Origin: Gammaproteobacteria bacterium
GTDB lineage: Bacteria; Pseudomonadota; Gammaproteobacteria; GRL18
Direction: 5' to 3'
Assembly (NCBI GenBank): GCA_016744375.1
Contig: JADGEM010000015.1
Span: 1 to 64,000, forward strand
Length of the DNA: 64,000 bases
The notes beneath the pieces are model-generated. The model was not told the origin of the DNA. It searched no databases and saw only the letters and a program-made list of their open reading frames with translations. The position numbers and the translations under genes were made by a program. Positions 114-17,260 of the stretch are shown here, piece after piece. Every line of letters begins with the position of its first letter. The stretch's first letter is position 1.

Positions 114-920
114 TTATTTCTTCCTTGCAATTACTAATAAACTGCCACCGAATAAATTAGGTAAATATTTGTTAAATTTATTTTCAAGTCTGGACAAATA
201 GAGAAGAATGTTACTAAGAAATGGATTTATTGATATGTCATGATTATATTCATGTAGTTCCACACTACATTTAGTATCTCTAAAGATCAACCTTCTCAAG
301 AACAACAAAGGAACTATACTCATAAAGAAATAAGTTGAAACATCAATATCGAACCCTGCATGTTTTAACTTTAATATAAGGTCTTTTTTTGTATATCTAT
401 ATTTATGTCCAGCAATCGCATCATCGCGGCACCAAAGCCACTGATGTGCAGGTACTGTAAGAATAACATGACCATTTATTTTTAACATTTTATAAATATT
501 TTTTAAGACTAATTCATTGTCCTCAATATGCTCTAAAACATCAAACAGACAAACCCCATCAAATACATTCTCAAAAGGAGTTCTTAATAAGTCAAATTGA
601 TAACATTCATCTATACCATATGATTTTGCATATTTTAGGCCTATGTGGTGCATTTCACCAACAGCAATATCAGAATAACCTTTAAATTTAAGATATCTTG
701 AGACATTTCCTGTACCCGCCCCAATTTCAATAATTTTTGATGATGAATCAATAACACTCTTCATTTGTTGAAAAATAAATTCTTTTCTAGAAATAAACCA
801 AAAATGCTGTTCTTCTGCCTTGAACAACTTATCTAACCCTTGAGAATTATAATCTGTATGATTTTCATCAATATCATCATGAATAATTATAATGCCATTT
901 TTATCTTTATACTTTTTCAC
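114..920 (-). CDS. Class I SAM-dependent methyltransferase
   Basis: A 268-aa soluble protein that should transfer a methyl group from S-adenosylmethionine to an unknown acceptor. The Rossmann motif I is visible as IIEIGAGTGNVSRYL at about residues 63-77, followed by the acidic strand-2 end and the motif FDGVCLFDVLEHIEDNELVL near residue 120, typical of the Methyltransf_11/23 group (UbiE-like and polysaccharide-associated enzymes). The N-terminal segment with HFWFISRKEFI is common in methyltransferases of surface-polysaccharide and lipid-glycosylation clusters. It begins 6 nt downstream of the SMR-type transporter stop, so the two genes are probably cotranscribed. A GGTG ribosome-binding sequence lies about 7 nt before the ATG. 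The acceptor cannot be told from sequence. Confidence 0.85.
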   Translation of the reverse strand: MKKYKDKNGIIIIHDDIDENHTDYNSQGLDKLFKAEEQHFWFISRKEFIFQQMKSVIDSSSKIIEIGAGTGNVSRYLKFKGYSDIAVGEMHHIGLKYAKSYGIDECYQFDLLRTPFENVFDGVCLFDVLEHIEDNELVLKNIYKMLKINGHVILTVPAHQWLWCRDDAIAGHKYRYTKKDLILKLKHAGFDIDVSTYFFMSIVPLLFLRRLIFRDTKCSVELHEYNHDISINPFLSNILLYLSRLENKFNKYLPNLFGGSLLVIARKK

Positions 921-926
921 CAGTAA

Positions 927-1295
927 TTACGAGCCCTTACTTAAAACAAATACACCTACTACTATCAACAACAGCCCCCCCATTTTTAAAAAAGTAAAGG
1001 GTTCTTTCAAAAAAACAATTGCAAAAACACTTGTAAGAACAGCAAGCCCCCCAACAATAATGGGATATGCATGGCTAACATCAAATTTTGTCATCGCTGC
1101 CATCCAAAAAAAAGAAGCTATAAACGCAGCAAAAAAACCACTGAAGATATACGGATCATATAAGAACTTAAATAAAAAAATCAACTTTTCGCTAAATTCT
1201 TCAGGCAGAGCGCCATATTTCACAATTCTCCACTTTAGAATAAGCTGACCATACACAGTAAAAAGCACAGTTCCAAAAATATATAAATAACCCAT
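927..1295 (-). CDS. Small EamA/SMR-type membrane transporter
   Basis: A 122-aa integral membrane protein with four hydrophobic segments, the length and layout of small multidrug resistance and ArnE/ArnF-like proteins. The last two segments (HAYPIIVGGLAVLTSVFAI, then GGLLLIVVGVFVLS) match the C-terminal half of the drug/metabolite transporter fold. ArnE/ArnF relatives flip undecaprenyl-phosphate-linked sugars. With a polyprenol-phosphate glycosyltransferase at 2806 and a methyltransferase directly downstream, a role as a lipid-linked sugar flippase is an inference; a multidrug or amine transporter is the alternative. It ends 6 nt before the methyltransferase gene. No strong ribosome-binding site precedes the ATG. 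Confidence 0.7.
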   Translation of the reverse strand: MGYLYIFGTVLFTVYGQLILKWRIVKYGALPEEFSEKLIFLFKFLYDPYIFSGFFAAFIASFFWMAAMTKFDVSHAYPIIVGGLAVLTSVFAIVFLKEPFTFLKMGGLLLIVVGVFVLSKGS

Positions 1296-1518: not shown

Positions 1519-2668
1519 CATAGGGAGGATCTTTAAAAGTTGAAATGAAGCCGTTTTCATGATCAAATAGTTGTTCCTACACAATTATTTTTTCAAAAAA
1601 AAGACTTCAAAATGAACATTAGCATATTCACAAAAAAGCTAAAACTAATTCTAAGTGAAAAGAAATTAAATAAGCTGGGAAAAGAAACACAATTTACTCA
1701 GCGAGAAAGAAATATAACTGCCTTTCAATTAGTTACAGCCATGATATGTGCATTGGGAGATAAACAGGCTGATTATTTATCTGATATTCTAAGATATTTT
1801 AATCAAATGGTGGTTTTGAAAGCGCAAGTCTAACCCCTGATACTTTTTCAGAGCGAGGTGAGATGCCAACAGTTATGGAACTGAAAGGTAATTTATTTCT
1901 GGCTGACCGAGGTTATTATTCCGCTGATTTTATATTGGAACTGGATAAGGCTGGTGATTATTATGTTTTAAGAGTGAAAGGCTTAAAACGCGTGTTGATC
2001 CATAGTGCTGTTCGACAAGATGGTCAACAACTGATTAATAAAAAATCACCTAAGCTCTCAGTCTTACAGAATCGACTACCCAAAAGACAAGCAGTTGATA
2101 TGGGCGTTGAAATCAACGGTGAAATTGTCAGACTGGTTGCCTATTGGAGTTTAAAAGAGAAGCGACATACCTATCTCATCACGAACTTAAAGCGAGATGA
2201 GTTTTCAATACAGGATATCAGTAATATATACTGCATGCGCTGGCAAGTTGAAATTCTTTTTAAAGAATGTAAATCCCATAATAATTTGCATGGATTTAAT
2301 ACACAAAGTGCAAGCTTACAGGAATCACTTATTTGGGCCAGTTTGATTTCAACGACATTGAAACGATTTGTGGCGGGTTGTATTGGACTGACATTTAAAG
2401 TTAAAATGTCGACAATGATTGTCGGTCAACTGGTGGTATGGCTTACTAGAAGCCATTGTGCAGCAACGAAGAAAAGGTTTAGTGAACCAAATTACTGAAG
2501 CTTGTGACTATTTAAAAGAAAAAGCCCAACGTGCACACCCTAAACGTGATCGACAATCAGGCATTTTACAGTATGCATTGGAGCCAGAATTTTATGCTCA
2601 AATGTGATAATAAATCAGGTGCTATTTATATGAAAAATAACGATGTTTTTCTTAAGTGCCTACCTATG
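1519..2668 (+). mobile_element. IS4-family insertion sequence, internally deleted
   Basis: The element is delimited by imperfect terminal inverted repeats, CATAGGGAGGATCTTTAA on the left and, read inward on the opposite strand, CATAGGTAGGCACTTAAG on the right, and is flanked by a perfect 10-bp duplication. At 1150 bp it is shorter than a typical IS4-family element because the transposase gene has lost an internal segment near 1801-1808. The transposase reading frame is broken at least twice. The ends and target duplication are well preserved while the gene is dead, so this copy could move only if supplied with transposase from elsewhere. Confidence 0.85.
1612..2607 (+). pseudogene. IS4-family DDE transposase, deleted and frameshifted
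   Basis: Three in-frame pieces belong to one transposase. The first (1612 to about 1805) holds the N-terminal helical region ending in YFNQ. After a junction near 1801-1808 the reading continues one frame over with SLTPDTFSERGEMP, then LADRGYYSADFI (second catalytic Asp) and YCMRWQVEILFKECKS, the Y-R-E-K signature of IS4 with the catalytic Glu. Near 2425-2440 the frame shifts again, and the tail from WWYGLLEAIVQQ to EFYAQM ends at the TGA at 2605-2607. The segment that normally carries the first catalytic Asp (a DGSSFA-like motif) is missing, so the enzyme cannot be active. The final piece includes KRDRQSGILQYALEP. Confidence 0.9.
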
Positions 2669-2805: not shown

Positions 2806-3744
2806 ATGTCCCATATACACATTTCGGTTGTAATCCCAGTTTATGGGTGTTGCAAGTGTTTAGACATGCTTTATCAACGTTTGGAAAATTCACTATCCAG
2901 CATCACACAAGATTTTGAAATTATCATGGTGAATGATTCAAGCCCAGATAATTCATGGATGTTAATTCAATCTTTAGCAAAAAAAGATGATAGAGTAAAG
3001 GGGATCAGCCTTTCAAGAAATTTCGGTCAGCATTATGCAATTACAGCCGGACTTAATCATGCTCATGGAGATTGGATCGTTGTTATGGATTGTGACCTGC
3101 AAGATCAGCCTGAAGAGATTGTAAAACTTTACGAAAAAGCACAGGAAGGATTTAATATTGTTTTTGGAAGGCGATATCAACGACAAGACTCCTTTTTCAA
3201 ACGACTAGGGTCAACAGTGTACTATAAAGTATATAATTATTTTACAGAAAGCAATGTTGATAATAGTATTGCTAATTTTAGTATCATATCATCTAATGTT
3301 CTTGCACAATTAATAAAATTAAAAGAACAAAATCGCTCTTATCCACTTTTTATCAATTGGGTTGGATTCAAACGAACTGAAATAAATATTGAGCATGCAG
3401 CTCGTGAGCAAGGAAATACAACTTATACATTAAAAAAATTAATCAATTTGGCCATTGATGGTATAGTTTCACAATCAAACAAGCCTTTACGCTTATCCAT
3501 TAAATTTGGTTTTTTAATTTCATTACTATCTTTATTTTATACTCTATTTTTGATTCTTCGCTACTTTATTCATGGAATACCAGTAGAAGGTTGGACATCT
3601 GTAATGGTTTCAATTTATTTTATTGGAGGATTAATATTTGCAAACATGGGAATCATAGGTCTCTATATTGGAAAAATATTTGACGAGGCAAAAAACAGAC
3701 CTCTATATCTCATATCAGAAACAACTTTTGATAAGGATCCCTAA
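2806..3744 (+). CDS. Polyprenol-phosphate glycosyltransferase, family 2
   Basis: A 312-aa GT-A fold glycosyltransferase of the DPM1/GtrB/ArnC type, which moves a sugar from a nucleotide donor to undecaprenyl phosphate at the inner face of the cytoplasmic membrane. The N-terminal domain shows SVVIPVYGC, then IIMVNDSSPDNSW and VVMDCDLQDQPEEI, the paired acidic motifs that bind the nucleotide sugar and metal. SLSRNFGQHYAITAGLNHA is also characteristic. Two C-terminal membrane segments (about 235-257 and 267-290) anchor it, as in GtrB. The gene is followed one base later by the acyltransferase at 3746, implying an operon. The sugar is unknown. Confidence 0.88.
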   Translation: MSHIHISVVIPVYGCCKCLDMLYQRLENSLSSITQDFEIIMVNDSSPDNSWMLIQSLAKKDDRVKGISLSRNFGQHYAITAGLNHAHGDWIVVMDCDLQDQPEEIVKLYEKAQEGFNIVFGRRYQRQDSFFKRLGSTVYYKVYNYFTESNVDNSIANFSIISSNVLAQLIKLKEQNRSYPLFINWVGFKRTEINIEHAAREQGNTTYTLKKLINLAIDGIVSQSNKPLRLSIKFGFLISLLSLFYTLFLILRYFIHGIPVEGWTSVMVSIYFIGGLIFANMGIIGLYIGKIFDEAKNRPLYLISETTFDKDP

Positions 3745-3745
3745 A

Positions 3746-4312
3746 ATGGCTTATTACACAAATAATGAATTAAAAAAGTTAAATTTTAAATCCTTGGGCA
3801 ACAACCTAAAAATAAGTACAAAGGCCAGCATTTATGATTACGATAAAATTGAAATAGGTGACAATTCTAGAATTGATGATTTTTGCGTAATTTCTGGAAA
3901 ATTAACAATTGGAAGAAATGTACATATTACACCTCAATGCTTAATTGCTGGTGGCGATAAAGGAATAGTTTTTGAGGATTTTACTACAATTGCATATCAT
4001 TCACAGATTTTCACACAATCTGATGATTATTCTGGTATTACTATGACCAATTCTACAATACCAAAAGAATTTAAAAATGAGTTTAAAAAAGAAGTTATAA
4101 TAAAAAAAAATTCAATTATCGGTGCAGGTTCAATTATTATGCCGGGGGTTATTTTAGCCGAGGGAACATCCATTGGCGCAATGTCACTGGTATTATTTAA
4201 CACATTACCTTGGAGTATTTATGTAGGAATCCCGGCAAAAAAAATAAAAACCAGGAGTAAAAACTTACTAGAATTAGAACATCAATATTTAAATAAAACC
4301 ATAAGTAAATAA
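3746..4312 (+). CDS. Hexapeptide-repeat acyltransferase (LbH fold)
   Basis: A 188-aa protein with left-handed beta-helix hexapeptide repeats, seen as IEIGDNSRIDDFCVIS, LTIGRNVHITPQCLI and IGAGSIIMPGVILAEGTSIG. Its C-terminus (WSIYVGIPAKKIKTR) is the standard ending of sugar O-acetyltransferases of the LacA/NodL/WbbJ group. It probably acetylates a surface sugar using acetyl-CoA. I chose the ATG at 3746, one base after the glycosyltransferase stop, with AAGGA about 9 nt upstream, in preference to an in-frame ATG at 3668 that would overlap the upstream gene by 77 nt. The acceptor is unknown; perhaps the sugar handled by the upstream enzyme. Confidence 0.8.
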   Translation: MAYYTNNELKKLNFKSLGNNLKISTKASIYDYDKIEIGDNSRIDDFCVISGKLTIGRNVHITPQCLIAGGDKGIVFEDFTTIAYHSQIFTQSDDYSGITMTNSTIPKEFKNEFKKEVIIKKNSIIGAGSIIMPGVILAEGTSIGAMSLVLFNTLPWSIYVGIPAKKIKTRSKNLLELEHQYLNKTISK

Positions 4313-4483: not shown

Positions 4484-6508
4484 ATGGTAATGGGTAAAAT
4501 TAATATTATATCAAATACATCAATGTTTGTGATGGTTGTAATTATACTAGTAGTCATCACTGTATTTATGTCTTTGATTCATTTTGTTCCATTAGTTGAT
4601 TGCTTAAAGTTTTATGCTGCTATTTTCTTTTTTATCTATCTACCCGGTTATAGCATCTTAAAATTATGCCACTGGGATAACAACCCAGTTTCTTATACTA
4701 TTCTTTCTCTATTAACAGGTGTAGCTGTAACAACGATTTCATATCCCTTAATAAGAAAAGCAGACCAAATGTGGTTGTTTATTTTACTATCTGTACTTTC
4801 TTTAGTTTTCTTTGTTGTCAAAAATAAAAAAGCATATGAACAATTTACAAGCATAAAGAATTATCACCTTGATAAAGCCTGGTGGTTAGGGCTAATAATA
4901 TGTTGTTTAGTACTAGTTTTACTCAATTTTAGTCATTTTGGAGATTTAATCATATTGCTCAATAATGAAGGTTATTTGTTAAGAAATGATCCTACTTCAG
5001 AGTCAATTTATCACTTTGGTATTATTAATGCTTTAAAAACAACGCTGACACCCGACTTTCCATATCTAAGTGGTTATAATTTTTCATATCACTTTGGCAT
5101 GCACTTATTGGCAGAGATGTTATGTCGATATACTGGAATCAATTCATTGTTGATGACTTACTATTTTTTACCTCTCCTATATTTTATTCTCCTCATTTCA
5201 GTATCTGCCATATTTTTCTATCAAATCACTCGAAATATTTTATTTAGTATTTTATTTGGTTTTACTTTATTTGCAGAAGATTTATCATTTATTGCCAACA
5301 TTTTAGAGTTTACAGAAAATTCTGCAAACCCTTCAGTCTTTAGAACTCTTACCTGGAGTATTTTCACTCTAAACGGAATCCTTCCAGGCATTCCCTTTTT
5401 GTTTGGAGCCATTATTATGTTTGATCGTTTTTTTAGGAATAATAAGTGGCAAAATCTACTCCTTTTTACTCTATTTGTTGTTGTTTCATTTAGCATAAAA
5501 GGCTCAATTGGACCTCATATTATTGGAGCATCAATAATATCTTTGTTTATTATGTTCGTTATGAAAGAGTGTCAACACTGCTGGAAAATTGGACTTACAC
5601 TTTTATTGTCATCTATATTTATAACAATAGAATATATCATCAGACCCTCTCCAACAGAATCTATTCAACTAATTAAAATTGATCCATTTAACAGCTTTTT
5701 TTTAACATTAGAACGCTTAAACATAAACCTCGACATATTGATAATAAACCAGCCCGTACTATGGGTTATATTTTTTCTATTAGCTTTATTATTTTATATA
5801 GTTGGTAGTTTTGGAGTAAGAATTGTTTTTATAAAATATGTACTTGACTTTTTTAAAAGAAGGACTAACCAGCCTATAATCATCTTTCTTTTGACATTTA
5901 TTATCTCTGGTTTTTTTCTTTCAGAATTTATATTTATTGGCTCAAATATAAGCAAGATTAATAATGGCGGATGGTTCGCTATTCAATCAATATATATAGC
6001 CAATTTTTTTATTATAAGCTTACTAGTATCAATTAAAAACAAAAAAAGAAGAAGGGTATTAAGCATATTAGTTATCATTTTTTCCTTTACAGGAACATTC
6101 TTATTTCTTTCTGATTATAGAAATAAGAATAAGTATCTTCATATTTCACCACAGCAAATCAATTTATCTCAATTCATACAACAGAATACTTTCAACAAAT
6201 CAATAATACTTGAACCACTTTATTATGCCCCATCACTTGTTTCACATTTATCTGGAAGAAGTAGCCCTATGACCGTTTACATGGTTTTCACAGAACAGAT
6301 CGCATCTAAGCATATTATTGATGAGCGCTATAGAGATATAATTAATTTTTATGATAAAAATTTTATAGGAAGCCGTAAAGAAATAATAAAAAAATATAAC
6401 ATTGATTATTTTATTACGACGAAAAAACTACAAGGGAATTTTAACGAAGAAGCTCTTGGAGATAAAATTTTTAGCAATAATGAATATATTATTTATAAGA
6501 TAAAATAA
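4484..6508 (+). CDS. Large polytopic membrane protein, GT-C-like
   Basis: A 674-aa protein with about a dozen hydrophobic segments and a small soluble C-terminus (about 555-674). The loop between early membrane helices carries LLRNDPTSESIYHFGIINAL followed by GYNFSYHFGMHLLAEML. Acidic and His/Tyr-rich periplasmic loops of this kind are seen in GT-C glycosyltransferases such as ArnT/PMT relatives, which take sugars from lipid carriers. The tail motif NIDYFITTKKL resembles the C-terminal domains of such proteins. No named family is certain. A second ATG at 4490 is an equally good start. It follows the polysaccharide-type genes at 2806-4312 after a 171-nt gap and probably serves the same product. 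Codon use is very A+T-rich. Confidence 0.55.
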   Translation: MVMGKINIISNTSMFVMVVIILVVITVFMSLIHFVPLVDCLKFYAAIFFFIYLPGYSILKLCHWDNNPVSYTILSLLTGVAVTTISYPLIRKADQMWLFILLSVLSLVFFVVKNKKAYEQFTSIKNYHLDKAWWLGLIICCLVLVLLNFSHFGDLIILLNNEGYLLRNDPTSESIYHFGIINALKTTLTPDFPYLSGYNFSYHFGMHLLAEMLCRYTGINSLLMTYYFLPLLYFILLISVSAIFFYQITRNILFSILFGFTLFAEDLSFIANILEFTENSANPSVFRTLTWSIFTLNGILPGIPFLFGAIIMFDRFFRNNKWQNLLLFTLFVVVSFSIKGSIGPHIIGASIISLFIMFVMKECQHCWKIGLTLLLSSIFITIEYIIRPSPTESIQLIKIDPFNSFFLTLERLNINLDILIINQPVLWVIFFLLALLFYIVGSFGVRIVFIKYVLDFFKRRTNQPIIIFLLTFIISGFFLSEFIFIGSNISKINNGGWFAIQSIYIANFFIISLLVSIKNKKRRRVLSILVIIFSFTGTFLFLSDYRNKNKYLHISPQQINLSQFIQQNTFNKSIILEPLYYAPSLVSHLSGRSSPMTVYMVFTEQIASKHIIDERYRDIINFYDKNFIGSRKEIIKKYNIDYFITTKKLQGNFNEEALGDKIFSNNEYIIYKIK

Positions 6509-6840: not shown

Positions 6841-7140
6841 TAAAATAGTGTCTCTAATTAACATATTGTCATTATATTATCTATTTTTTACTCAATGATC
6901 CCATAAGCTGGCAGAAAATTTTCGCTTTATGCCTAATCATTTCAGGAACAATTGTGACAAGCAAAAGCATACAAGAACAAGATTTATTGATATTTATCAG
7001 TCACTTAAGTTGTTTTAGGTAAGAATACCCACAAACATATCAAGGTAACACAAATAATTGGCATGTGCATTGCTTCATAACTACATAGAATTTAGTTTTA
7101 TTATGTTTTATACAAAACATAATTACAAAAGGAAGCTCTA
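6841..7140 (+). other. Intergenic leader of first pilin gene
   Basis: This stretch holds no gene. Its only clear signal is the sigma-54 promoter at 7058-7075. From the expected start near 7087 the untranslated leader would be about 50 nt, ending in AAAGGAAG before the ATG at 7141. Confidence 0.6.
7058..7075 (+). promoter_or_regulatory. Sigma-54 (-24/-12) promoter of first pilin gene
   Basis: TTGGCATGTGCATTGCTT matches the sigma-54 consensus YTGGCACGRNNNTTGCW at most positions, with the invariant GG and GC exactly 10 bp apart. It lies 66 nt upstream of the pilin ATG. Major pilin genes in Pseudomonas and relatives are transcribed by RpoN with the activator PilR, so this is expected biologically. 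The second pilin gene has an equivalent site. Confidence 0.85.
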
Positions 7141-7530
7141 ATGAAAAAAAAACAATCTGGTTTTACACTTATCGAGCTAATGATTGTGGTTGCAATTATT
7201 GGTATTTTGGCGGCTGTTGCACTGCCTGCATATCAAGAATATATTGCAGAGTCACATGGTGCTGCAGCAATGAAGGGTGTTGCAACAGTTTCGGCTAAGG
7301 CGGCCACTTGTACACAAATTAATATCGGTTGTACAACTTTAGCAGCAGAAATGGGTTCAACTGGTTATGGCGGCACTATAACCTATCAGGTCGGTGGAAC
7401 TATAACCTATAATGATGGTGATTGCATTGCAACTGCTACTGTGCCTGCTGTAGGTTTGATTACTTATGGTGCGGCCTCTAGTGGCTCTGGAGCTACTACA
7501 CCTCAATGCCAATCCGGGGCGGGTTTATAA
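7141..7530 (+). CDS. pilA: Type IV major prepilin, copy 1
   Basis: A 129-aa type IVa prepilin. The short leader MKKKQSG is followed by [20 protein letters not shown], the hydrophobic assembly helix. PilD would cut between Gly7 and Phe8 and methylate Phe; Glu at mature position 5 is present. Four cysteines (57, 64, 95, 123) probably form two disulfides, the last enclosing the C-terminal loop. Residues 77-91 contain a small internal duplication (GGTITY twice). The C-terminal region is rich in Ser, Thr and Gly, a plausible O-glycosylation zone. Copy 2 at 11989 is the same length, identical at 88 of 129 positions, and keeps all four cysteines. AAAGGAAG precedes the start, and a sigma-54 promoter lies upstream. 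Confidence 0.93.
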
Positions 7531-7606
7531 CCCCATAAACACTTTCATATCAGACTTGGAAAAAACTTAGTTGGGTTCAATGCTGGAATTTAACACACTC
7601 AATTCT

Positions 7607-9685
7607 TCATAACCCAAAAAAAACTTTACAGGCATCTTGATTAGGCATAAATGTTGTTAAAGGTAAGTCATTATTAAATTTTTCTTTTTTAAGTTTATTT
7701 TTAAATATCTCTATATCCTTAAGTGAAAATTTTTCAAGCTTATTATCTTTTTGAAAAAGTTCAAGGATTTCTACTATAACAGCAATGTCATACAGTGATA
7801 AGGGGTCATTCTTTAATTGAGTTTTTCTATCTATAAAATTTAATAGCAGGATTTCTACATCTTTTCCTTTCTTTAGTTTTGCCATAGAATAAGCAAACAT
7901 AAGCGTATCATAAGTGTACGAATCTTTAATCCCACCAAAAAGATGATAAGCACTTAAATAATTTAAGTCGTGTAAAGCTAAATACCCCATTAAGCGACGA
8001 ACAATATCAGAGGAAAGTGATTTTTCATCAAGCGTATTAAAAAAAGTAGAATTTTTTCCATTTAATCGGTAATTATCAATAGCTAATAACAATTGCTTTA
8101 CCGTATAAGACTTATTTGCAAACAACTTATTTGATAACTCGATTTCTTTTTGTATCGGCACCATTAATTGGTCACTCCAACACATAGGGAGGATGGTTAA
8201 TTTGCTTGCAATAGGAAAGGCAATAGGGGTATTACTTTTGGCAAATAGCAAAAAACCATCATCAGCAAAGTTAAGAGTTCTGTTTTTAATCGTTTTTGAA
8301 AAATTAAGTGCCGCTATAGAGGAGCGATACACTAGATATTGAATATTATAGTGCTCAACCTCCTGACTAAGTATTGTAGAGTTGTTATAAACTTTTCGAT
8401 GATGTTTATAATAATCAAGAGAGTATAAAATATTGGTGCGGCCATCAATATGCACTTTAAAATCAGGCGACAACTTATGGATCAGATACCCTCCCATTGT
8501 AAGACTATTTAAAATATTCCCACCGTCATGATAGTTTTTCAAATAGTCTGAAAGCTGAATAGGATACCGCTTGTTTGAGTTGTTATCCATTGTCTGTAAG
8601 ACAAAACGAGCATCTCTGATGGCATGATAATAAGCTAACAATGATAGGCTAATGGCAACAGTAATAACCATTGTTTTTACTAGCGAACTTAATCGCATAG
8701 AAGCAACTTTTTTAGGCGTGATTTGACTTAGAAAAAAAGCCAGAACACAAAAATTGACAATAGCTACTGGCGTGATTATACGTGCTATATAATAGGAACA
8801 AACACCTAAAAAAATAGTCACAAATGCAAAGCCATATTGTTTTTTTATCAAAGACCAAATCGATAAATAAACCGATAAACCCCACAATAAAAAGACGATT
8901 TTATTAGTAGAATATACATCCATAGAATTCTGGTATTCACTAATATAACCTTTCCAATTATCTGACGAAAAAAACAAAGCAATAAAAAAATGTTCAAAGG
9001 TCGGGTTAACAAAACCAATAAAAAAGATCCCTCCTCCCCACAAAAACCATGTTTTCCAAGAATAACTTTCATCTTTATTGATGACTTTAGCAATCGCTCT
9101 GTCTAAAAAAAGAGCAAACACAATCACATAACCAAAAACCGGGGAGTGGTAATTTACCCAAAAAAGCAATAACAAACTGGTGGCAATAAGCTCTTTATTG
9201 GCAAAGGAATCTCTTGCTTTTAGATATAAAGAAAGACTAATAATGATGAGTATATTGGATAATATATCAGGTCTTATGATTAACCGCATTTGAATAAAAT
9301 AAGTTAAAAATGGCAAAATAAGAAAAATAACAAACCAGGAGGCTTTTATTTGCCTAAAGTAGACATGGATAAAAAATAATAACAATAAAACATAAAACTG
9401 TTTAAAGAAAACAAAACCATTATTCTCACCAAAAACAGATACCACCCATGCAAGCAGCACCTGAAAAATAATAGGAACGGAGCTCACTGGCTGACCATAA
9501 TGAGTGAAACTATAATGATCAATCCAGGGTGACAAGCCCTGATTCAAGAAATCATTCCCCAATTGCAAATGCCAAAAGCTGTCAAAAACTAATGGTGGAC
9601 GTAAAGAAAAGATGAACAAACTAATGTAACAAAATAGAAAAACCAGTGCGGTTAAAATAAAGGATTGATTGTTTATTTTACTCAC
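7607..9685 (-). CDS. GT-C-like membrane protein, pilin-island copy B
   Basis: A 692-aa protein with about eleven hydrophobic segments in residues 10-345 and a soluble C-terminal half. After the first membrane helix comes FDSFWHLQLGNDFLNQGLSP, a periplasmic-loop motif with Asp and Trp-His like the catalytic loop of GT-C glycosyltransferases. The soluble part begins with GGYLIHKLSPDFKVHIDGRT and later has LPMCWSDQL and helical-repeat-like sequence. The tandem neighbour at 9693 is a full-length paralogue sharing every one of these motifs. The start lies 7 nt after that gene's stop, so the two are cotranscribed. By position (beside a pilin gene) and by topology and size it recalls TfpW, the GT-C enzyme encoded next to group IV pilins of Pseudomonas aeruginosa. 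Pilin glycosylation is inference; no family is confirmed. Confidence 0.6.
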   Translation of the reverse strand: MSKINNQSFILTALVFLFCYISLFIFSLRPPLVFDSFWHLQLGNDFLNQGLSPWIDHYSFTHYGQPVSSVPIIFQVLLAWVVSVFGENNGFVFFKQFYVLLLLFFIHVYFRQIKASWFVIFLILPFLTYFIQMRLIIRPDILSNILIIISLSLYLKARDSFANKELIATSLLLLFWVNYHSPVFGYVIVFALFLDRAIAKVINKDESYSWKTWFLWGGGIFFIGFVNPTFEHFFIALFFSSDNWKGYISEYQNSMDVYSTNKIVFLLWGLSVYLSIWSLIKKQYGFAFVTIFLGVCSYYIARIITPVAIVNFCVLAFFLSQITPKKVASMRLSSLVKTMVITVAISLSLLAYYHAIRDARFVLQTMDNNSNKRYPIQLSDYLKNYHDGGNILNSLTMGGYLIHKLSPDFKVHIDGRTNILYSLDYYKHHRKVYNNSTILSQEVEHYNIQYLVYRSSIAALNFSKTIKNRTLNFADDGFLLFAKSNTPIAFPIASKLTILPMCWSDQLMVPIQKEIELSNKLFANKSYTVKQLLLAIDNYRLNGKNSTFFNTLDEKSLSSDIVRRLMGYLALHDLNYLSAYHLFGGIKDSYTYDTLMFAYSMAKLKKGKDVEILLLNFIDRKTQLKNDPLSLYDIAVIVEILELFQKDNKLEKFSLKDIEIFKNKLKKEKFNNDLPLTTFMPNQDACKVFFGL

Positions 9686-9692
9686 ACCACTA

Positions 9693-11777
9693 CTACTCCA
9701 TTAGCTTTTTACATTGTTTACGATAGGGAATTAATGTATTAAGCGGGTAATAATGATACAGTTTATCTTGTTGCAAACGCTCCTTAAAACGCTCAACGTC
9801 CTCAGGCTTAAAAATCGTTCCCTGGTCTTGGTCTCTAATCGCCATAATCACTTGATAGAGAGCGACCCGATCAAAAGCAGGTTTTAATGTATCCTGTCCA
9901 TTGTTTGTCCTAACTGCATAAAATTGTGCCAGCGTTTGTTCTGCAGTAACAAAATCTCCTTTTTTGGCTTTTATTACGCCAAGCATCCAAACATCATAAG
10001 CTTTTTTTCTCGATATTGTTGAAAACAAGCTTTCCGCAACATCCCAATACCCTAGATCATAGGCACGATAGCCTGCGACTCGTTTGACAACATTCACGGC
10101 ATCTTTTTTTATATTATTGAGAAATAGCTCTTTATTACTTGCCATAAAATAACCATTATAAAACGTTAACAAATGGGCAACATCAGTCGGCATTAAAGTT
10201 ATTTTTTTAGCCTGAGCTGACTCATTTTGCAATTGCTGCTGAAATCCACCTTGCCAACACATGGGATACACCGCTAACTTGGCGGTTTGGGGGAAATTAG
10301 GTGTTTTATCCCGAACAAAAAGCATATTGTCATTATCAGCATAGTCCAGTTTTAATCCAACTTTTCCTTGAAAACGACTATACTGCTCTGGTCTGTTTTT
10401 TATTAACAAATAATTGATGTTATATTTTTCTATTTCGGCTTGCATTTTAGTAACACTACGTAAAGCCTCATTATATCGTTTCATAAATTCAAACGGGTAG
10501 AGTATATTGGTGCGGCCATCAATATAGATTTTGTAATTGGGTGATAAATTAGCAATTAAAAAACCACCATAACCATAAGGATTAAAAACTTTCCCCCCAT
10601 CCAGTTGATTTAAGTAATTCACCACCTGGACTGGATACCGATAGTCTGGAATTTGGCCAATCTCACTACGCTCATCGTATACGGGTTTAAGAATTTTATA
10701 ATTTTCTTTAATAGCAAGAGCAGGTATAAGGAGAGTGGTGACTAAGAGCAGATACCAGATGAAGGGTCGAAGTGTAGACTTTAATTTTGGGATATCTGTC
10801 GTTGAAATAAGATACATTAGCATAGAAACATTAATGATTGCTGCAATAGGCACCAACCTTGCCATAGAAAGTGACACATAGCCAAAAATCACAGCAATAA
10901 AAGCAAGACCGTATTGACGATGAAACAAAGCCAAAATTAAGGTATAAAATGAGAGTATCCATGATAATAGAATGGTATTATTTTGTATGTAAATAATAGT
11001 AGGGTCTTGCCATTCACCAATATAAAGTGACCAGTCAGCACCACCTAATGTTAATACATCAAGCAAAAAATAGCTGCCTGTTGATAAATCAAAACCTGCC
11101 AATAATAATATCACTCCCCAACCAACAAGCTTTGGCCAGCGAATATCTGTTTCTTTGAAAATAAGTTTTTGTATACCCTTATCAAAAAAAAGCCCTCCGA
11201 TAATCACATAACCGAATATGGGCGTATGGTAATTTGACCAAAAAGCCAATAACAACAAAATAAAAAAACAATTTTTATGACTAAAGTTGTTTTTAGTTTG
11301 AAAAAAAAGAATTAAGCTGGCAAGACTTAAAATAATAGAAACCAGTTCAGGCCGGACGATATCACGCAATAAGACAAAATAGAGCAACACGGGCATAAAA
11401 AGGATAATGACCCACCATGAAATTTTAAGCGAGCTAAAATAAAACCATAGGAGGCTAAAGAAAATGGATACATAAAGAATTTTAATAACAGCAAAGCCCC
11501 AATATTCACCAAAATAGGCAACCGCTGTCGCCAGACCTATTTGAAACATCCAGGGTATGTTACTAATGTTCTCACCATTATGAGTAAAACTGTAGTGATC
11601 AACCCAGGGAGAGAGGTCTGATTGCAAATAATCTCGTCCCATTTGCAAATGCCACCAGGAATCCCATGCAAAGGGTATTCTTATCGAGTAAAACACAGCC
11701 AGGATATAAGTGAATATCATCATAACGATGCCAACAAAGAGCAGGTAACGACGGTTATCTTGAAGCAGGTAAGTCAT
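9693..11777 (-). CDS. GT-C-like membrane protein, pilin-island copy A
   Basis: A 694-aa polytopic membrane protein from the ATG at 11777. A TTG 42 nt further upstream stays in frame but has no ribosome-binding site, and the chosen start makes the protein nearly equal in length to its paralogue (692 aa). The first loop has WDSWWHLQMGRDYLQSDLSP, and the soluble domain starts with GGFLIANLSPNYKIYIDGRT and continues with YPMCWQGGF and a helical C-terminus. These blocks line up one for one with the gene at 7607, showing tandem duplication and divergence. A GT-C fold that takes sugar from a polyprenyl carrier is the best structural guess. It lies downstream of pilin copy 2 on the same strand, behind a terminator-like hairpin, so read-through from the pilin promoter would give low expression. 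Confidence 0.6.
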   Translation of the reverse strand: MTYLLQDNRRYLLFVGIVMMIFTYILAVFYSIRIPFAWDSWWHLQMGRDYLQSDLSPWVDHYSFTHNGENISNIPWMFQIGLATAVAYFGEYWGFAVIKILYVSIFFSLLWFYFSSLKISWWVIILFMPVLLYFVLLRDIVRPELVSIILSLASLILFFQTKNNFSHKNCFFILLLLAFWSNYHTPIFGYVIIGGLFFDKGIQKLIFKETDIRWPKLVGWGVILLLAGFDLSTGSYFLLDVLTLGGADWSLYIGEWQDPTIIYIQNNTILLSWILSFYTLILALFHRQYGLAFIAVIFGYVSLSMARLVPIAAIINVSMLMYLISTTDIPKLKSTLRPFIWYLLLVTTLLIPALAIKENYKILKPVYDERSEIGQIPDYRYPVQVVNYLNQLDGGKVFNPYGYGGFLIANLSPNYKIYIDGRTNILYPFEFMKRYNEALRSVTKMQAEIEKYNINYLLIKNRPEQYSRFQGKVGLKLDYADNDNMLFVRDKTPNFPQTAKLAVYPMCWQGGFQQQLQNESAQAKKITLMPTDVAHLLTFYNGYFMASNKELFLNNIKKDAVNVVKRVAGYRAYDLGYWDVAESLFSTISRKKAYDVWMLGVIKAKKGDFVTAEQTLAQFYAVRTNNGQDTLKPAFDRVALYQVIMAIRDQDQGTIFKPEDVERFKERLQQDKLYHYYPLNTLIPYRKQCKKLME

Positions 11778-11916
11778 GGTTGTGAGCCTAAATTGTGAAT
11801 GGCCATTTATATAGGGCAAGAAGTGAATCGCATGTATTTATTATTGAAAGGAGCTGGTGCTGTCTGTCTAAGGTTGCTGACAACAAACCTTTAGCAATCA
11901 ACAAACACAGTAACAC

Positions 11917-11952
11917 AAAAAACCCAGATGCAGTTTTTATACTGCTTCTGGG
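11917..11952 (-). terminator. Intrinsic terminator after pilin copy 2
   Basis: On the minus strand CCCAGAAGCAGTATAAAAAC begins a stem that closes with CTGCATCTGGG, followed by TTTTTT. The stem has about 10 pairs with one mismatch. It lies 37 nt past the pilin stop and before the GT-C-like gene. It would let the pilin be made in bulk while only read-through transcripts reach the membrane proteins. A T-rich run on the other side suggests weaker activity in the plus direction. Confidence 0.8.
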
Positions 11953-11988
11953 CTGTTTTTGATAAAACTAATTAAAGTGAGCGCTTAA

Positions 11989-12378
11989 TTATAAGCCAGC
12001 ACCTGACTGACACTGTGTAGCAGTAGCAGCACCACCGTTCGTAGTTGAAGCATAAGTGACTGCTCCTGTATTAGGCACGGTTGCTGTGACAATACAGTCA
12101 CTATCACCAAAAGCATAACTACCACCAGTTCCAGCGGCAATAGTACCACTATAACCAGCAGCACCTAGTTCATTAGTTAAGGTACCACAACCAATACTGG
12201 TCTGCGTACAGGCAGCCGCTTTACTAGCAAGGGATGCAGTGCCTTTCATTGCAGCCGCACCATGAGACTCAGCAACATATTCTTGATAAGCAGGTAGAGC
12301 AACTGCGGCTAAAATACCGATAATTGCGACCACGATCATTAATTCGATAAGTGTAAAACCTGATTGTTGTTTTTTCAT
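11989..12378 (-). CDS. pilA: Type IV major prepilin, copy 2
   Basis: A 129-aa type IVa prepilin with leader MKKQQSG and assembly helix [20 protein letters not shown], identical over this stretch to copy 1. Cleavage is expected after Gly7. Cysteines 57, 64, 95 and 123 are conserved. Divergence from copy 1 concentrates in residues 50-120, the surface-exposed head, while the final QCQSGAGL is identical. The C-terminal loop ([12 protein letters not shown]) is rich in Thr and Ser. A sigma-54 promoter lies about 65 nt upstream and a strong terminator follows, so this looks like a highly expressed gene. Which of the two is the main pilin cannot be told. Confidence 0.93.
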
Positions 12379-12440
12379 GATAGTTCCTTTTAGTTTATTT
12401 CAATGTAAATAGTTAAATATTACATGCTTGAATTAATTAA

Positions 12441-12457
12441 AGCATCTTCCATGCCAG
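12441..12457 (-). promoter_or_regulatory. Sigma-54 (-24/-12) promoter of pilin copy 2
   Basis: On the minus strand CTGGCATGGAAGATGCT fits the sigma-54 consensus, with GG and GC 10 bp apart. It lies about 63 nt upstream of the pilin ATG, almost the same distance as in copy 1. The rest of the gap from 12379 to 12686 shows no gene. Confidence 0.85.
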
Positions 12458-12686: not shown

Positions 12687-13028
12687 TCACTCACTCCATA
12701 AACTTGAAAGAGAGAAACTGATTTCCTGAAAAGGTGCAATTGATACTTGTTTATCATTATCAATTGTTTCTAATAAAATCCATTGTTCCTTATAGAACTC
12801 ATAAACTTCCAGGGTTTGAAGCTGAGGATCGAATAACCAGAAATGGCTGACACCCTGATGGGCATAGATCGGCATTTTTTTCCAGCCAGCTAAATCGGGG
12901 GCTAAAGCATGTTTGGAAGCGGGCCTGGGATGGGTTTCAATACGACCATTAATGATTTCTCCAATAATGTGCTCTGGTAATTGGAGTATATCTTCATATA
13001 CTACTAATTTTATAGCTGTATTACTCAT
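12687..13028 (-). pseudogene. Uma2-family (DUF820) endonuclease with two internal deletions
   Basis: The frame encodes 113 residues from the ATG at 13028 (preceded by GGTGAAA). It starts like a Uma2 protein (EHIIGEIINGRIETHPRPA) and ends like one (KKMPIYAHQGVSHFWLFDPQ, then a beta-strand tail). The middle is missing: HALA is joined directly to PDLAGW, and PDLAGW directly to KKMPIYA. In full-length relatives these blocks are separated by the region carrying the EPELHLG motif and by the catalytic PD-(D/E)xK core with the 'EVLSPST' segment. Both deletions keep the frame, so a short protein could be made, but without nuclease residues. An upstream GTG/ATG extension to 13157 is open but does not resemble the family. 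Confidence 0.7.
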
Positions 13029-13259
13029 TTTCACCACATCTTGATTTTTTGTACCTATTTTTAGTGAGAGTATCTCTGTACTATTTAAATTATAGACAAA
13101 TAACCATTGATTTATTGAAACAACTCTCATTTTTAATAATTTATTGAGAAAAAACAATAATTTTTTGGCTATAATTAAAGTTCGTACTAGAATGTATTAG
13201 TAGAGTATGTCAATCTTCTTAAACTTCTTTCATCAAATAGAGTTAACTATTAGGCAATT

Positions 13260-14975
13260 ATGGCATTAGCACAACAATCATCTCAGTTAACCGGCCTGGC
13301 CCGACAACTTGTCATGCAGAGTTTCCTCAGTGAAGAGGATGCAATCAGTGCATTAGCTCAGGCAACCAAAGACAAATTACCCTTTGTCCAGTACGTAACT
13401 AAAAAAAATATCGTTAAACCCATTGATATCGCAACGCTTGCCTCAACTGAATTCGGTACCCCACTGCTTGATATCAGCACGGTGGAATTTGAAAAAGAAA
13501 CAATTGCAGTTATTAAAGAAAACCTGATCAACAAACATCATGCCCTCCCGCTTTTTAAACGAGGGGCTCGTTTATTTGTTGCGGTAGCTGACCCGACTAA
13601 TATTGCCGCACTGGATGAAATTAAATTTCAATCCGGTTTGAGCACTGAGGCTATTCTTGTTGAAGCAGACAAGCTCGAGTCTGCCATTGAAAAAGCACTC
13701 GCAGAGGCAGACGACAGCATGGATATGTCTGACTTTGATGATGATGATCTTGAAGGTCTTGACTATGAAGATGCCGAAAAGGAAGAGGAAGATGGTGGCA
13801 GCGGACAAGATGATGCCCCGGTTGTCAAATTTGTTAATAAAATTCTATTAGATGCCATTAAAAAAGGGGCATCTGATATTCATTTTGAGCCTTATGAGAA
13901 ATTCTTTCGGGTACGTTTAAGAATGGATGGTATCCTTGAAGAGGTTGCTAAACCACCGGTTTCTCTCACCCCGCGGATACTGGCACGAATTAAAGTGTTA
14001 TCCCGGCTTGATATTTCAGAACGACGCATCCCCCAGGATGGTCGAATGCGCATGAAAATATCTAAAAATCGAGCCATTGATTTTCGAGTAAGTACCTGCC
14101 CTACTCTTTTTGGTGAAAAAGCAGTCTTACGAATTTTGGATCCAACCAGTGCACAATTAGGGATTGATGCACTCGGTTATGAAAGCTTTCAAAAAGATCT
14201 CTATATGGATGCCCTGGCAAAACCTCAGGGCATGATTCTGGTCACAGGCCCGACAGGCTCTGGAAAAACTGTTTCACTCTATACTGGTTTAAACATTCTT
14301 AATACTGAAGGGGTCAATATATCAACGGCTGAAGATCCAGCAGAAATTAATTTACCTGGTGTAAACCAGGTTAACGTCAATCCTAAAACTGGTCTGACCT
14401 TTGCAGCCGCACTTCGCTCATTCTTGCGTCAGGATCCTGACATTGTTATGGTCGGGGAAATACGTGACTTAGAAACAGCCGAAATTGCAATTAAGGCTGC
14501 CCAAACTGGCCATATGGTGCTTTCTACTCTGCATACAAATGATGCCCCGCAGACACTTGGCCGCTTAATGAATATGGGTGTTCCTCCTTACAACATTGCT
14601 TCAGCTGTGAGCCTTATTATTGCTCAGCGCCTTGCACGACGCTTATGTGAAAACTGTAAAACTGCCCATGATGTCCCAAAAGAGGCCTTATTGGAAGAAG
14701 GCTTTACAGATGAAGACCTTGCTTCTAGCTTTACTGTCTATAAGCCTGTTGGCTGTGCAAGCTGCAATGCAGGATATAAAGGACGGGTAGGAATCTATCA
14801 GGTGATGAAAATATCAGAAGAAATGGGTCGTATTATTATGGAAGGGGGTAATGCATTGAATTTAGCAAATCAGGCAAAAGAAGAAGGGATCCCAGATCTT
14901 AGAAAATCAGGACTAAGAAAAGTAATGCATGGTATTACCAGTCTTGAAGAAGTTAACAGGGTTACTAAGGACTAG
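13260..14975 (+). CDS. pilB: Type IV pilus assembly ATPase PilB
   Basis: A 571-aa hexameric secretion ATPase that powers pilus extension from the cytoplasmic face. The N-terminal T2SSE_N domain (about 1-150) is followed by an acidic linker of Asp/Glu runs (about 157-185). The ATPase core has Walker A GPTGSGKT at about 330-337, the Asp box and Walker B with DIVMVGEIRDLETAEIAIKA, and the His box STLHTNDAPQT. Four zinc-binding cysteines are at 463, 466, 499 and 502. Length matches PilB of Pseudomonas (566 aa). It is first in a pilB-pilC-pilD-coaE set. It would polymerise the pilins encoded just upstream. Confidence 0.97.
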   Translation: MALAQQSSQLTGLARQLVMQSFLSEEDAISALAQATKDKLPFVQYVTKKNIVKPIDIATLASTEFGTPLLDISTVEFEKETIAVIKENLINKHHALPLFKRGARLFVAVADPTNIAALDEIKFQSGLSTEAILVEADKLESAIEKALAEADDSMDMSDFDDDDLEGLDYEDAEKEEEDGGSGQDDAPVVKFVNKILLDAIKKGASDIHFEPYEKFFRVRLRMDGILEEVAKPPVSLTPRILARIKVLSRLDISERRIPQDGRMRMKISKNRAIDFRVSTCPTLFGEKAVLRILDPTSAQLGIDALGYESFQKDLYMDALAKPQGMILVTGPTGSGKTVSLYTGLNILNTEGVNISTAEDPAEINLPGVNQVNVNPKTGLTFAAALRSFLRQDPDIVMVGEIRDLETAEIAIKAAQTGHMVLSTLHTNDAPQTLGRLMNMGVPPYNIASAVSLIIAQRLARRLCENCKTAHDVPKEALLEEGFTDEDLASSFTVYKPVGCASCNAGYKGRVGIYQVMKISEEMGRIIMEGGNALNLANQAKEEGIPDLRKSGLRKVMHGITSLEEVNRVTKD

Positions 14976-15112: not shown

Positions 15113-16345
15113 ATGGCGACGAAAGAAAAATCAGCTCCACTTTTTGTTTGGGAAGGTGCCGATAGAAATGGGAACCGGAAAAAAGGTGAGATTCAGGCTA
15201 AAAATTCTGCTTTAGCCAAGGCACAACTCCGGCGTGAAGGGATTAATGTTCTTAAAATGAAACCCAAGCCAAAGCCGCTGTTTGGGCTTGGCGGACCAAG
15301 AAGAAAAGCCATTACAGCACTGGATATCGCCATTTTTTCCCGGCAGCTGGCCACTATGATGAAAGCAGGTGTACCGTTGGTACAATCATTTGAAATTGTC
15401 GGCAATGGCCATGAAAACCTGGCAATGCAGGAAATGATTCTAGGTCTTAAAGCTGAAGTTGAAGGCGGTAGCTCATTAACAGAAGCTTTGAGAAAGTACC
15501 CCCTGCTTTTTGATGATTTGTACTGCAATCTAGTACAAGCTGGCGAACATGCCGGTATTCTGGATGGTATTTTAGATAAGGTTGCCACTTATAAGGAAAA
15601 ATCAGAAGCACTTAAGGCAAAAATTAAAAAAGCCATGGGCTATCCTATTGCTGTAATCGTTATTGCTATTATCGTTGTCAGTATTTTGTTAATTTTTGTG
15701 ATACCTGTATTTGACGGTATGTTTAAAAGCTTTGGTGCTGATCTGCCTGCTCCCACTCAGTTTGTAGTCAATTTATCAAAATTTTTACAGGAATGGTGGT
15801 GGGCACTTATTGGTGCAATAGGAGGAGCAATCTTAACCTTTTCTTACTTTCATAAACGCTCTAAAAAAATGCGTGAAACTGTTGATAGAGTGATGCTTAA
15901 AGTCGCCATTATCGGACCCATTATGGAAAAAGCCGCTATTGCCCGTTATGCCCGCACCTTACAAACCATGTTTGCAGCAGGCACACCATTAGTAGAAGCG
16001 TTAACTTCTGTTTCAGGTGCAGTCGGAAATATTGTTTTTCAAAAAGCGGTGGAGCAAATTCAACAGGAAGTTTCAACGGGCACTCAATTATATAAGGCCA
16101 TGACTAATACCAACATATTTCCTAATATGGTGATTCAAATGACCATGATTGGCGAGGAGTCTGGTTCACTTGACACCATGCTGGGTAAAGTGGCTGATTT
16201 TTATGAGGCTGAGGTTGACAATCTGGTTGATAGTTTAACCAGTTTGATGGAACCTATAATTATGTCAGTCTTAGGTATCATTATTGGTGGTATTGTGGTC
16301 GCAATGTATCTACCAATCTTCCAGATGGGCAAAGTTATCGGCTAA
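15113..16345 (+). CDS. pilC: Type IV pilus inner-membrane platform protein PilC
   Basis: A 410-aa polytopic platform protein with two T2SSF domains. The first begins around residue 77 (DIAIFSRQLATMMKAGVPLV), the second around 280 (RYARTLQTMFAAGTPLVEAL). Three membrane segments are visible near 175-200, 228-250 and 382-405. PilC couples PilB ATP hydrolysis to insertion of pilins at the fibre base. AAGGA lies 6 nt before the ATG. It follows pilB after 137 nt with no terminator seen, and pilD begins 6 nt downstream. Confidence 0.97.
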   Translation: MATKEKSAPLFVWEGADRNGNRKKGEIQAKNSALAKAQLRREGINVLKMKPKPKPLFGLGGPRRKAITALDIAIFSRQLATMMKAGVPLVQSFEIVGNGHENLAMQEMILGLKAEVEGGSSLTEALRKYPLLFDDLYCNLVQAGEHAGILDGILDKVATYKEKSEALKAKIKKAMGYPIAVIVIAIIVVSILLIFVIPVFDGMFKSFGADLPAPTQFVVNLSKFLQEWWWALIGAIGGAILTFSYFHKRSKKMRETVDRVMLKVAIIGPIMEKAAIARYARTLQTMFAAGTPLVEALTSVSGAVGNIVFQKAVEQIQQEVSTGTQLYKAMTNTNIFPNMVIQMTMIGEESGSLDTMLGKVADFYEAEVDNLVDSLTSLMEPIIMSVLGIIIGGIVVAMYLPIFQMGKVIG

Positions 16346-16351
16346 AACCCT

Positions 16352-17260
16352 ATGGACATTATTTTATATTTTAAAACAAACCTTGTTTTTTTTCTTTTTT
16401 CAGTTTTTATACTTAGCTTACTGGTGGGGAGCTTTCTAAATGTAGTCATATATCGCATTCCCATCATGCTTAAACGTGAATGGAAAACGGATTGTGTTGC
16501 CTTTCTGGCTGATGAATCTGACACCGGGAAGCAGACACAAGCGATTTCTGAAGTAAGTTCTGAGGAAGAGTCTTTTAACCTTTCAGTGCCACGTTCTCGC
16601 TGTCCTTCTTGTGGTCATCAAATCACAGCATTGGAAAATATTCCTGTGCTCTCATGGCTTTTTTTAAGAGGAAAGTGTTCTGAGTGCCAGTCAAGTATTT
16701 CAATTCGCTACCCTATTATAGAGCTGACAACAGCATTGCTTTCTACTTTAGTCGCTTATTACTTTGGTGTGCAATGGTTTACTTTAGCCGCACTCTTTTT
16801 GACCTGGACACTTATCGCCCTGACGATGATTGATTTTGACACACAATTATTGCCTGATAATATGACTTTGCCCTTATTGTGGCTTGGCCTTCTGATGAGT
16901 TTATTACAAATCTCCTCAATCCCACTTACAACCAGTGTGATTGGAGCTATGGCAGGTTATATGGCACTCTGGAGCGTCTATCAACTATTTAAACTGGCCA
17001 CAGGCAAGGAAGGTATGGGTTATGGTGATTTTAAATTACTGGCAGTTTTAGGCGCCTGGCTGGGCTGGCAGGCACTGCCTCTGATCCTGCTGCTTTCAGC
17101 AGTCGTGGGGGCATTTGTCGGTATTTCACTCATCGTCTTTATGGGACGCGATAAAAGCATTCCAATTCCTTTTGGTCCATACCTTGCATCAGCAGGATTT
17201 ATCAGTCTGTTATGGGGTGATTCCATTCAGAAGTTTTACTTGAATATTTCAGGGTTGTAA
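16352..17260 (+). CDS. pilD: Prepilin leader peptidase / N-methyltransferase PilD
   Basis: A 302-aa inner-membrane aspartic protease that removes the Gly-terminated leader of prepilins and methylates the new N-terminus. The cytoplasmic N-terminal domain carries paired CxxC zinc motifs (CPSCGHQITALENIPV, then GKCSECQ). The two catalytic aspartates are in MIDFDTQLLPD and GYGDFKLLAVLGAWLG. Eight hydrophobic segments fit the A24 family. An insertion of acidic, Ser-rich residues at about 50-75 (DESDTGKQTQAISEVSSEEE) precedes the zinc motif, somewhat longer than in many PilD proteins. The stop overlaps the coaE start as TAATG. Confidence 0.97.
   Translation: MDIILYFKTNLVFFLFSVFILSLLVGSFLNVVIYRIPIMLKREWKTDCVAFLADESDTGKQTQAISEVSSEEESFNLSVPRSRCPSCGHQITALENIPVLSWLFLRGKCSECQSSISIRYPIIELTTALLSTLVAYYFGVQWFTLAALFLTWTLIALTMIDFDTQLLPDNMTLPLLWLGLLMSLLQISSIPLTTSVIGAMAGYMALWSVYQLFKLATGKEGMGYGDFKLLAVLGAWLGWQALPLILLLSAVVGAFVGISLIVFMGRDKSIPIPFGPYLASAGFISLLWGDSIQKFYLNISGL

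Follow-up and report, generated by a model that had tools for sequence, protein, structure and literature searches.

We analysed the first 64 kb (the window) of contig JADGEM010000015.1 from the gammaproteobacterial assembly GCA_016744375.1, a stretch that starts at base 1 of the contig, here called C65. Close to its left end lies a gene island that may glycosylate type IV pilins. Its core, as a sequence-only reading had described, consists of two type IVa prepilin genes, pilin A and pilin B, facing each other across genes for two paralogous polytopic membrane proteins, P0003 and P0004 (Table 1). The pilins are identical at 88 of 129 positions in a full-length alignment, share cysteines at residues 57, 64, 95 and 123, and both terminate in CQSGAGL. 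Features of type IVa pilins found for both are the N-methylation/prepilin motif, a C-terminal cysteine pair and a sigma-54-type site, and both are presumably major pilins. Papers are cited below from excerpts by PMC number; among them is a precedent for a pilus built from two major pilins (PMC10628169).

Table 1. Island features and adjoining pilus genes in the window (GT, glycosyltransferase; aa, amino acids).
Feature	Position	Strand	Evidence or remark
Methyltransferase, paired with next gene	114..920	-	Pfam Methyltransf_23 3e-14
Small SMR/EamA membrane protein, ArnF-like	927..1295	-	EamA 1.4e-6; NCBIfam ArnF 7.1e-9, below cut-off
DDE transposase inside island	1863-2498		6.1e-15
GT2, GtrB/ArnC polyprenyl-phosphate-sugar synthase type	2806..3744	+	312 residues
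Hexapeptide-repeat acetyltransferase	3668..4312	+	Pfam Hexapep 5.1e-15
P0005, third large polytopic protein	4484..6508	+	674 aa; 14 hydrophobic segments
Sigma-54-type site, pilin A	7059..7074	+	TGGCATGTGCATTGCT, 0 mismatches
Pilin A, type IVa prepilin	7141..7530	+	129 aa; Pfam N_methyl E 1.9e-11
P0003	7607..9685	-	692 aa, GTG start; P0004's family, putative fold by 33% identity to P0004
P0004	9693..11777	-	694 aa from ATG; GT-C model
Predicted terminator/attenuator in the pilin B-P0004 gap	11905..11985	-	Hairpin and U-run after stem
Pilin B, type IVa prepilin	11989..12378	-	129 aa; Pfam N_methyl E 6.7e-11
Sigma-54-type site, pilin B	12441..12456	-	TGGCATGGAAGATGCT, 1 mismatch
Uma2-type nuclease-like gene, between pilin B and pilB	12687-13157		5.4e-8
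pilB, right border of variable island	13260..14975	+	Named by sequence and place
pilC	15113-16345	+	NCBIfam PilC 4.2e-126, below cut-off
pilD	16352-17260	+	Peptidase_A24 3.1e-28

The sigma-54-type sites expected from that first reading were recovered ahead of both pilin genes. When both strands of the window were scanned, the site of pilin A was the only one without a mismatch, and that of pilin B was one of four with a single mismatch. The hairpin between pilin B and P0004 (minimum free energy -24.2 kcal/mol, z -3.77, equalled by 2 of 200 shuffles) may terminate or attenuate transcription. A simple consensus terminator scan missed it; that scan called 12 sites elsewhere in the region, with an expectation of 4.9.

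P0003 and P0004 share the strand of pilin B and converge on pilin A, and the P0003 start lies 7 bases past the P0004 stop; an alternative TTG start of P0004, at 11819, would give 708 aa. The two proteins are identical at 231 of 690 residues, and the three motifs named for them earlier all occur: a loop motif (DSFWHL in P0003, DSWWHL in P0004), a second block (GGYLIHKLSPDFKVHIDGRTNILY and GGFLIANLSPNYKIYIDGRTNILY, respectively) and PMCW in both. Neither protein matches any Pfam or NCBIfam model at E <= 1. With P0004, a sequence search of the PDB matched nothing and a profile search of PDB sequences reached a best E of 0.56. A PglL/TfpO type was rejected, there being no such Pfam match for either protein; Wzy_C and PglL-type domains, by which we take PglL/TfpO oligosaccharyltransferases to be recognised, are absent from the 24 Pfam families listed for 29 members of the family at E <= 10.

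The proposal of a GT-C glycosyltransferase fold had been put forward for refutation by structure prediction, which instead supported it. In a fold search with the AlphaFold2 model of P0004 (predicted local distance difference test score, pLDDT, 88.8; predicted template modelling score, pTM, 0.86), GT-C folds made up rows 1 to 43 and row 45 of the 50 VIA rows listed. The model comprises a GT-C membrane domain (residues 1 to 372, approximately), an alpha/beta domain (approximately 383 to 490) and a tail resembling tetratricopeptide repeats (TPR-like, 493 to 690). Profile-profile alignment with controls independently agrees on GT-C at 96.8%; 4 of the 17 PMT_2 proteins compared fall below the Pfam cut-off, and the valid controls are PilC, PilD and the reversed sets, the four window proteins (0.1-0.2%) not being membrane controls by their sequence. 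The model thus supports a GT-C fold for P0004, and P0003 would share it, judged by the 33% identity between the two. In the profile comparison, D39 of the D-S-W-W-H loop of P0004 aligns with the loop-1 Asp (D of the DE motif) of GT39-type enzymes. D39 is kept in 9 of 9 rows of alignment A2, and the loop-1 Asp, E255, R142 and R307 are invariant in all 9 rows that were found otherwise than by motif. A loop-1 Asp is common to GT-C enzymes (PMC7801869).

A protein scan of genomes yielded 43 loci encoding relatives, which we divided, at the gammaproteobacterial rows, into 14 close loci (L010-L023) and 29 distant loci (L024-L052). Three of them (L014, L017 and L022) coincide with the gene matches in genomes G009, G017 and G236 and enter the counts a single time. 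The tree and alignment A3 took 11 of the 14 close loci, with L020, L021 and L023 omitted as broken or partial; of the 29 distant loci, A3 includes 16, the other 13 having been omitted by choice. In the tree, of 19 rows, the 11 close loci and both window proteins form one clade, within which P0003 groups with L010 and L011 (100/98) and P0004 falls outside; the position of P0004 itself is without support, and five other rows carry long-branch warnings. A recent tandem duplication of P0003 and P0004 was therefore rejected. L013 is labelled Muriicola (Bacteroidota), yet its protein falls in the gammaproteobacterial clade; its record is probably misbinned, and it was kept in the count.

Several other genes at the locus could supply a sugar to such enzymes. 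The GT2 matches GtrB sll0501 (9.7e-63, query residues 4-305) and ArnC (2.3e-48, residues 6-308) in the PDB, and PgfS (1.9e-73) and ArnC (9.5e-60) in NCBIfam; both NCBIfam scores are below equivalog cut-offs, and the protein is named by type, not as an equivalog. The ArnF-like SMR protein is a candidate undecaprenyl-phosphate-sugar flippase by sequence, and the gene pair that it forms with the methyltransferase recurs in L014 (61% and 68% identical). The acetyltransferase has a TTG start overlapping the GT2 end, the real start possibly lying later, and a counterpart in the L017 island is 62% identical. A WecE-type aminotransferase (3.7e-163, above cut-off; 72% identical to that of L014) is encoded on contig C78 of the same genome. 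To what had been noticed from the sequence alone, the analysis adds the GT2, the ArnF-like protein, the acetyltransferase and P0005, the TPR-like tail and, on C78, a broken third pilin.

We consider it probable that this is a variable pilin-accessory island that makes a sugar, flips it and attaches it to type IVa pilins by a three-component, undecaprenyl-phosphate-sugar route. The predicted fold, the homology of the GT2 and the aminotransferase, and gene linkage form the basis of this reading; from them we infer the sugar, the flippase role, the acceptor, the role of the tail and the order of action. The nucleotide sugar, to be acylated next, would be the product of the WecE-type aminotransferase and is probably a 4-amino-4,6-dideoxyhexose; the WecE-type genes allow the guess that the final sugar is N-acylated 4-amino-4,6-dideoxyhexose. 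The GT2 would load it onto undecaprenyl phosphate, the ArnF-like protein would flip the undecaprenyl-linked sugar, and periplasmic transfer would fall to P0004 and P0003, the loop-1 Asp (D39) forming part of the active site. The C-terminal TPR-like tail would recognise the pilin, which is the likely acceptor, and two non-sister GT-Cs would provide for two successive sugars or two sites. On our best reading, the final transfer step uses a previously undescribed GT-C family, unrecognised here by Pfam and NCBIfam. Tentatively, and with rather less assurance than we have in the island's function, we propose that this unnamed family has a gammaproteobacterial branch serving pilins, that its periplasmic tail selects the pilin, that two divergent members of it build a short glycan on the pilus sugar by sugar, and that enzyme sets are swapped between species at the pilR-pilB site. 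A literature search over titles and abstract beginnings, mostly of open papers, returned no description of a pilin with paired GT-C genes.

Linkage to pilins was examined across the relatives. A prepilin gene lies within 5 kb in 7 of the 14 close loci (L012, L014, L015, L016, L017, L018 and L023, at distances from 30 bases to 4.8 kb) and near none of the 29 distant loci (Fisher P 1e-4, for rows that are not independent and of which the distant ones are mostly from other phyla). At 3.7% per locus, a rough rate from 8 prepilin-bearing contigs x 20 kb over 4.29 Mb, the chance of 7 in 14 is about 3e-7, likewise rough. PilB, PilC and PilD are present in five of the seven linked loci. Counting L010 and L014, which supplied the references, a WecE-like gene occurs in 6 and a GtrB-like GT2 in 8 of the 14 close loci. 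This linkage bears on the alternative that the GT-Cs are real but modify lipopolysaccharide (LPS), a glycan like enterobacterial common antigen (ECA) or an exopolysaccharide, the pilins being mere neighbours in a shared hot spot for variable surface genes. In its favour, half of the close relatives have no prepilin nearby, five of these with flanks of about 10 kb; WecE and GtrB also serve LPS and ECA; and the distant loci are without prepilins, with 6 of the 29 adjoining a GtrB-like GT2. We nevertheless judge it unlikely, given the frequency of prepilins at the close loci, the position of the enzyme directly after two pilins in L017 and after pilin B in the window, and a TPR-like tail more readily read as binding a protein.

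Less likely still is a special case of pilin glycosylation, suggested by the sequence-only reading, in which each pilin has its own dedicated enzyme. The numbers invite it, two pilins and two enzymes, and the enzymes, not being sisters, may differ in specificity. However, because P0003 and P0004 both lie behind pilin B alone and do not form a sister pair, we do not favour a separate enzyme for each pilin; the pilins moreover are 68% identical with the same C-terminal end, and L016 and L017 each have two pilins but one enzyme. Sequential or two-site action would fit better. That P0003 and P0004 keep a GT-C-derived scaffold without catalysis and serve as pilin chaperones or assembly factors, TfpY-like in effect, seems very improbable: they occupy the pilin accessory slot, where the non-glycosylating accessory protein TfpY is known (PMC11841053), and have a TPR-like tail, but their four invariant residues and the GT2 and flippase-like genes of the same island speak for catalysis.

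Pilin glycosylation by the island can be set beside several known systems. The likeness first seen to pilA-tfpW of group IV Pseudomonas, where the pilin gene is followed, past a terminator, by a glycosyltransferase gene (PMC11841053), has support in kind, since enzyme relatives adjoin pilins in half of the close loci. TfpW is a GT-C arabinosyltransferase, GT-C by the title of reference 19 of that paper. Our locus differs, on a comparison with TfpW by description, in its paired enzymes and paired pilins, its TPR-like tail and its GtrB-, ArnF- and WecE-like genes. The Pgf system of Streptococcus mutans (PgfS, PgfM1, PgfE, PgfM2) shares the type of GT2, PgfS being the best NCBIfam score of ours; it modifies surface proteins, and its membrane proteins PgfM1 and PgfM2 are proposed to act in order (PMC5856776). 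Pgf lacks a pilin, however, and for P0003 and P0004 NCBIfam gave no match at E <= 1. Three-component glycosylation (GtrABC; GT136 ribofuranose) combines a polyprenyl-phosphate-sugar synthase, a flippase and a GT-C enzyme (PMC11127046), and both a GtrB/ArnC-type GT2 and a GT-C enzyme were found at our locus; the acceptor there is O-polysaccharide and the flippase GtrA or MATE, whereas the window's candidate is of SMR type. The O-mannosyltransferases TMTC1-4 join an N-terminal GT-C domain to C-terminal lumenal TPRs (PMC7801869), an architecture that P0004 with its TPR-like tail may resemble, but they are human proteins, and cadherins are among the O-mannosylation acceptors of that enzyme group (PMC11292533). 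FlmG of Caulobacter has a TPR domain that binds filament subunits due for glycosylation (PMC7591256), but is a cytoplasmic GT-B-type enzyme with flagellin acceptors. A TMTC-type domain was not among the Pfam matches of P0003, P0004 and the 29 members, inclusion of a TMTC model in the library being unchecked. We take the TMTC-specific sequence domain to be a Pfam domain of unknown function.

On this reading the island would add to pilin glycosylation, a known kind of system, a GT-C family unrecognised by the searched model libraries. In Pseudomonas, glycosylation of pilins by TfpO and TfpW allows escape from pilus-binding phages (PMC11841053). In combining a confidently predicted fold with a TPR-like tail and repeated linkage to pilin loci, this GT-C family offers a testable rule for how a transferase finds its filament subunit, and the family serves as a marker for locating such islands in other genomes. 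If the tentative reading holds, a GT-C domain with a pilin-selecting tail would be the bacterial analogue of the TMTC layout.

The long form of the family is rare. Within the window's own family it occurs in its own genome and 2 of 23 others, and the order-level search covered the same 24 genomes. In the class sample, P0004 has matches in 7 of 369 genomes, long in three (its own, G009 and G236) and weak in four; the order of G236 has a match in 1 of 2 genomes. In the phylum sample of 398 genomes, the long form occurs only in its own genome and shorter or distant members in 24 others. G009 belongs to the window's genus, and its gene, L014, is recorded from a symbiont of Taylorina, so the window organism is possibly related to symbionts of bivalves. 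Taylorina is presumably a lucinid bivalve. In 18 of the 29 distant loci (L027-L036, L039, L040, L042, L043, L045, L048, L050 and L052), a gene for a PilR-like (NtrC-type) regulator immediately precedes the shorter family member.

The left flank of the island lies probably on C78, which begins with the WecE-type aminotransferase gene and continues with the broken third pilin, genes for a pilR-like regulator and for a pilS-like kinase, and then sucC. The broken pilin (L118:2380-2730) has a frame break in its leader, a partly missing N-terminal helix and the tail QCQSGAGL. Since genomes G006 and G005 have sucCD-pilS-pilR-pilins-pilB on a single contig, synteny points to C78 as the island's left half. 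Models gave sucC, the PilC type, the NtrC-type regulator and the histidine kinase; pilB, pilR, pilS and sucD were named by sequence and place. The gap from pilR to pilB is a variable hot spot, 2.2 kb with two pilins in G006 and 11 kb with additional other genes in G005, and pilB orthologues are 65-91% identical in relatives whose upstream gene content differs. In the window, GC content per kb ranges over 0.29-0.38 in the first 13 kb and over 0.38-0.44 between 13 and 24 kb. Plasmid cargo was rejected, with one plasmid record covering 14% of the query at E 5e-4 (phages were outside the search).

G005 (L108) and G011 (L110), of the same genus, fill the pilR-pilB gap with other gene sets. Both have a TfpX/TfpZ-type gene above cut-off, accompanied by an asparagine-synthetase-like gene (by eye) or by a pilin and a 661-aa polytopic protein; TfpX/TfpZ-type genes below the model cut-off occur in L014 and L023. 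C65 (window positions of about 75-110) and C78 (start of L118) carry near-identical TTTCTACAAGGTTTTACGAATACCC near their first bases, perhaps a repeat that broke the assembly. P0005 had no homologue in the other 273 class genomes searched (its own being 1 of 274), and its AlphaFold2 model reached a pLDDT of only 43, so that a fold was not obtained. Its C-terminal KYNIDY resembles, by eye, KYNINY of P0004, and P0005 is perhaps another GT-C.

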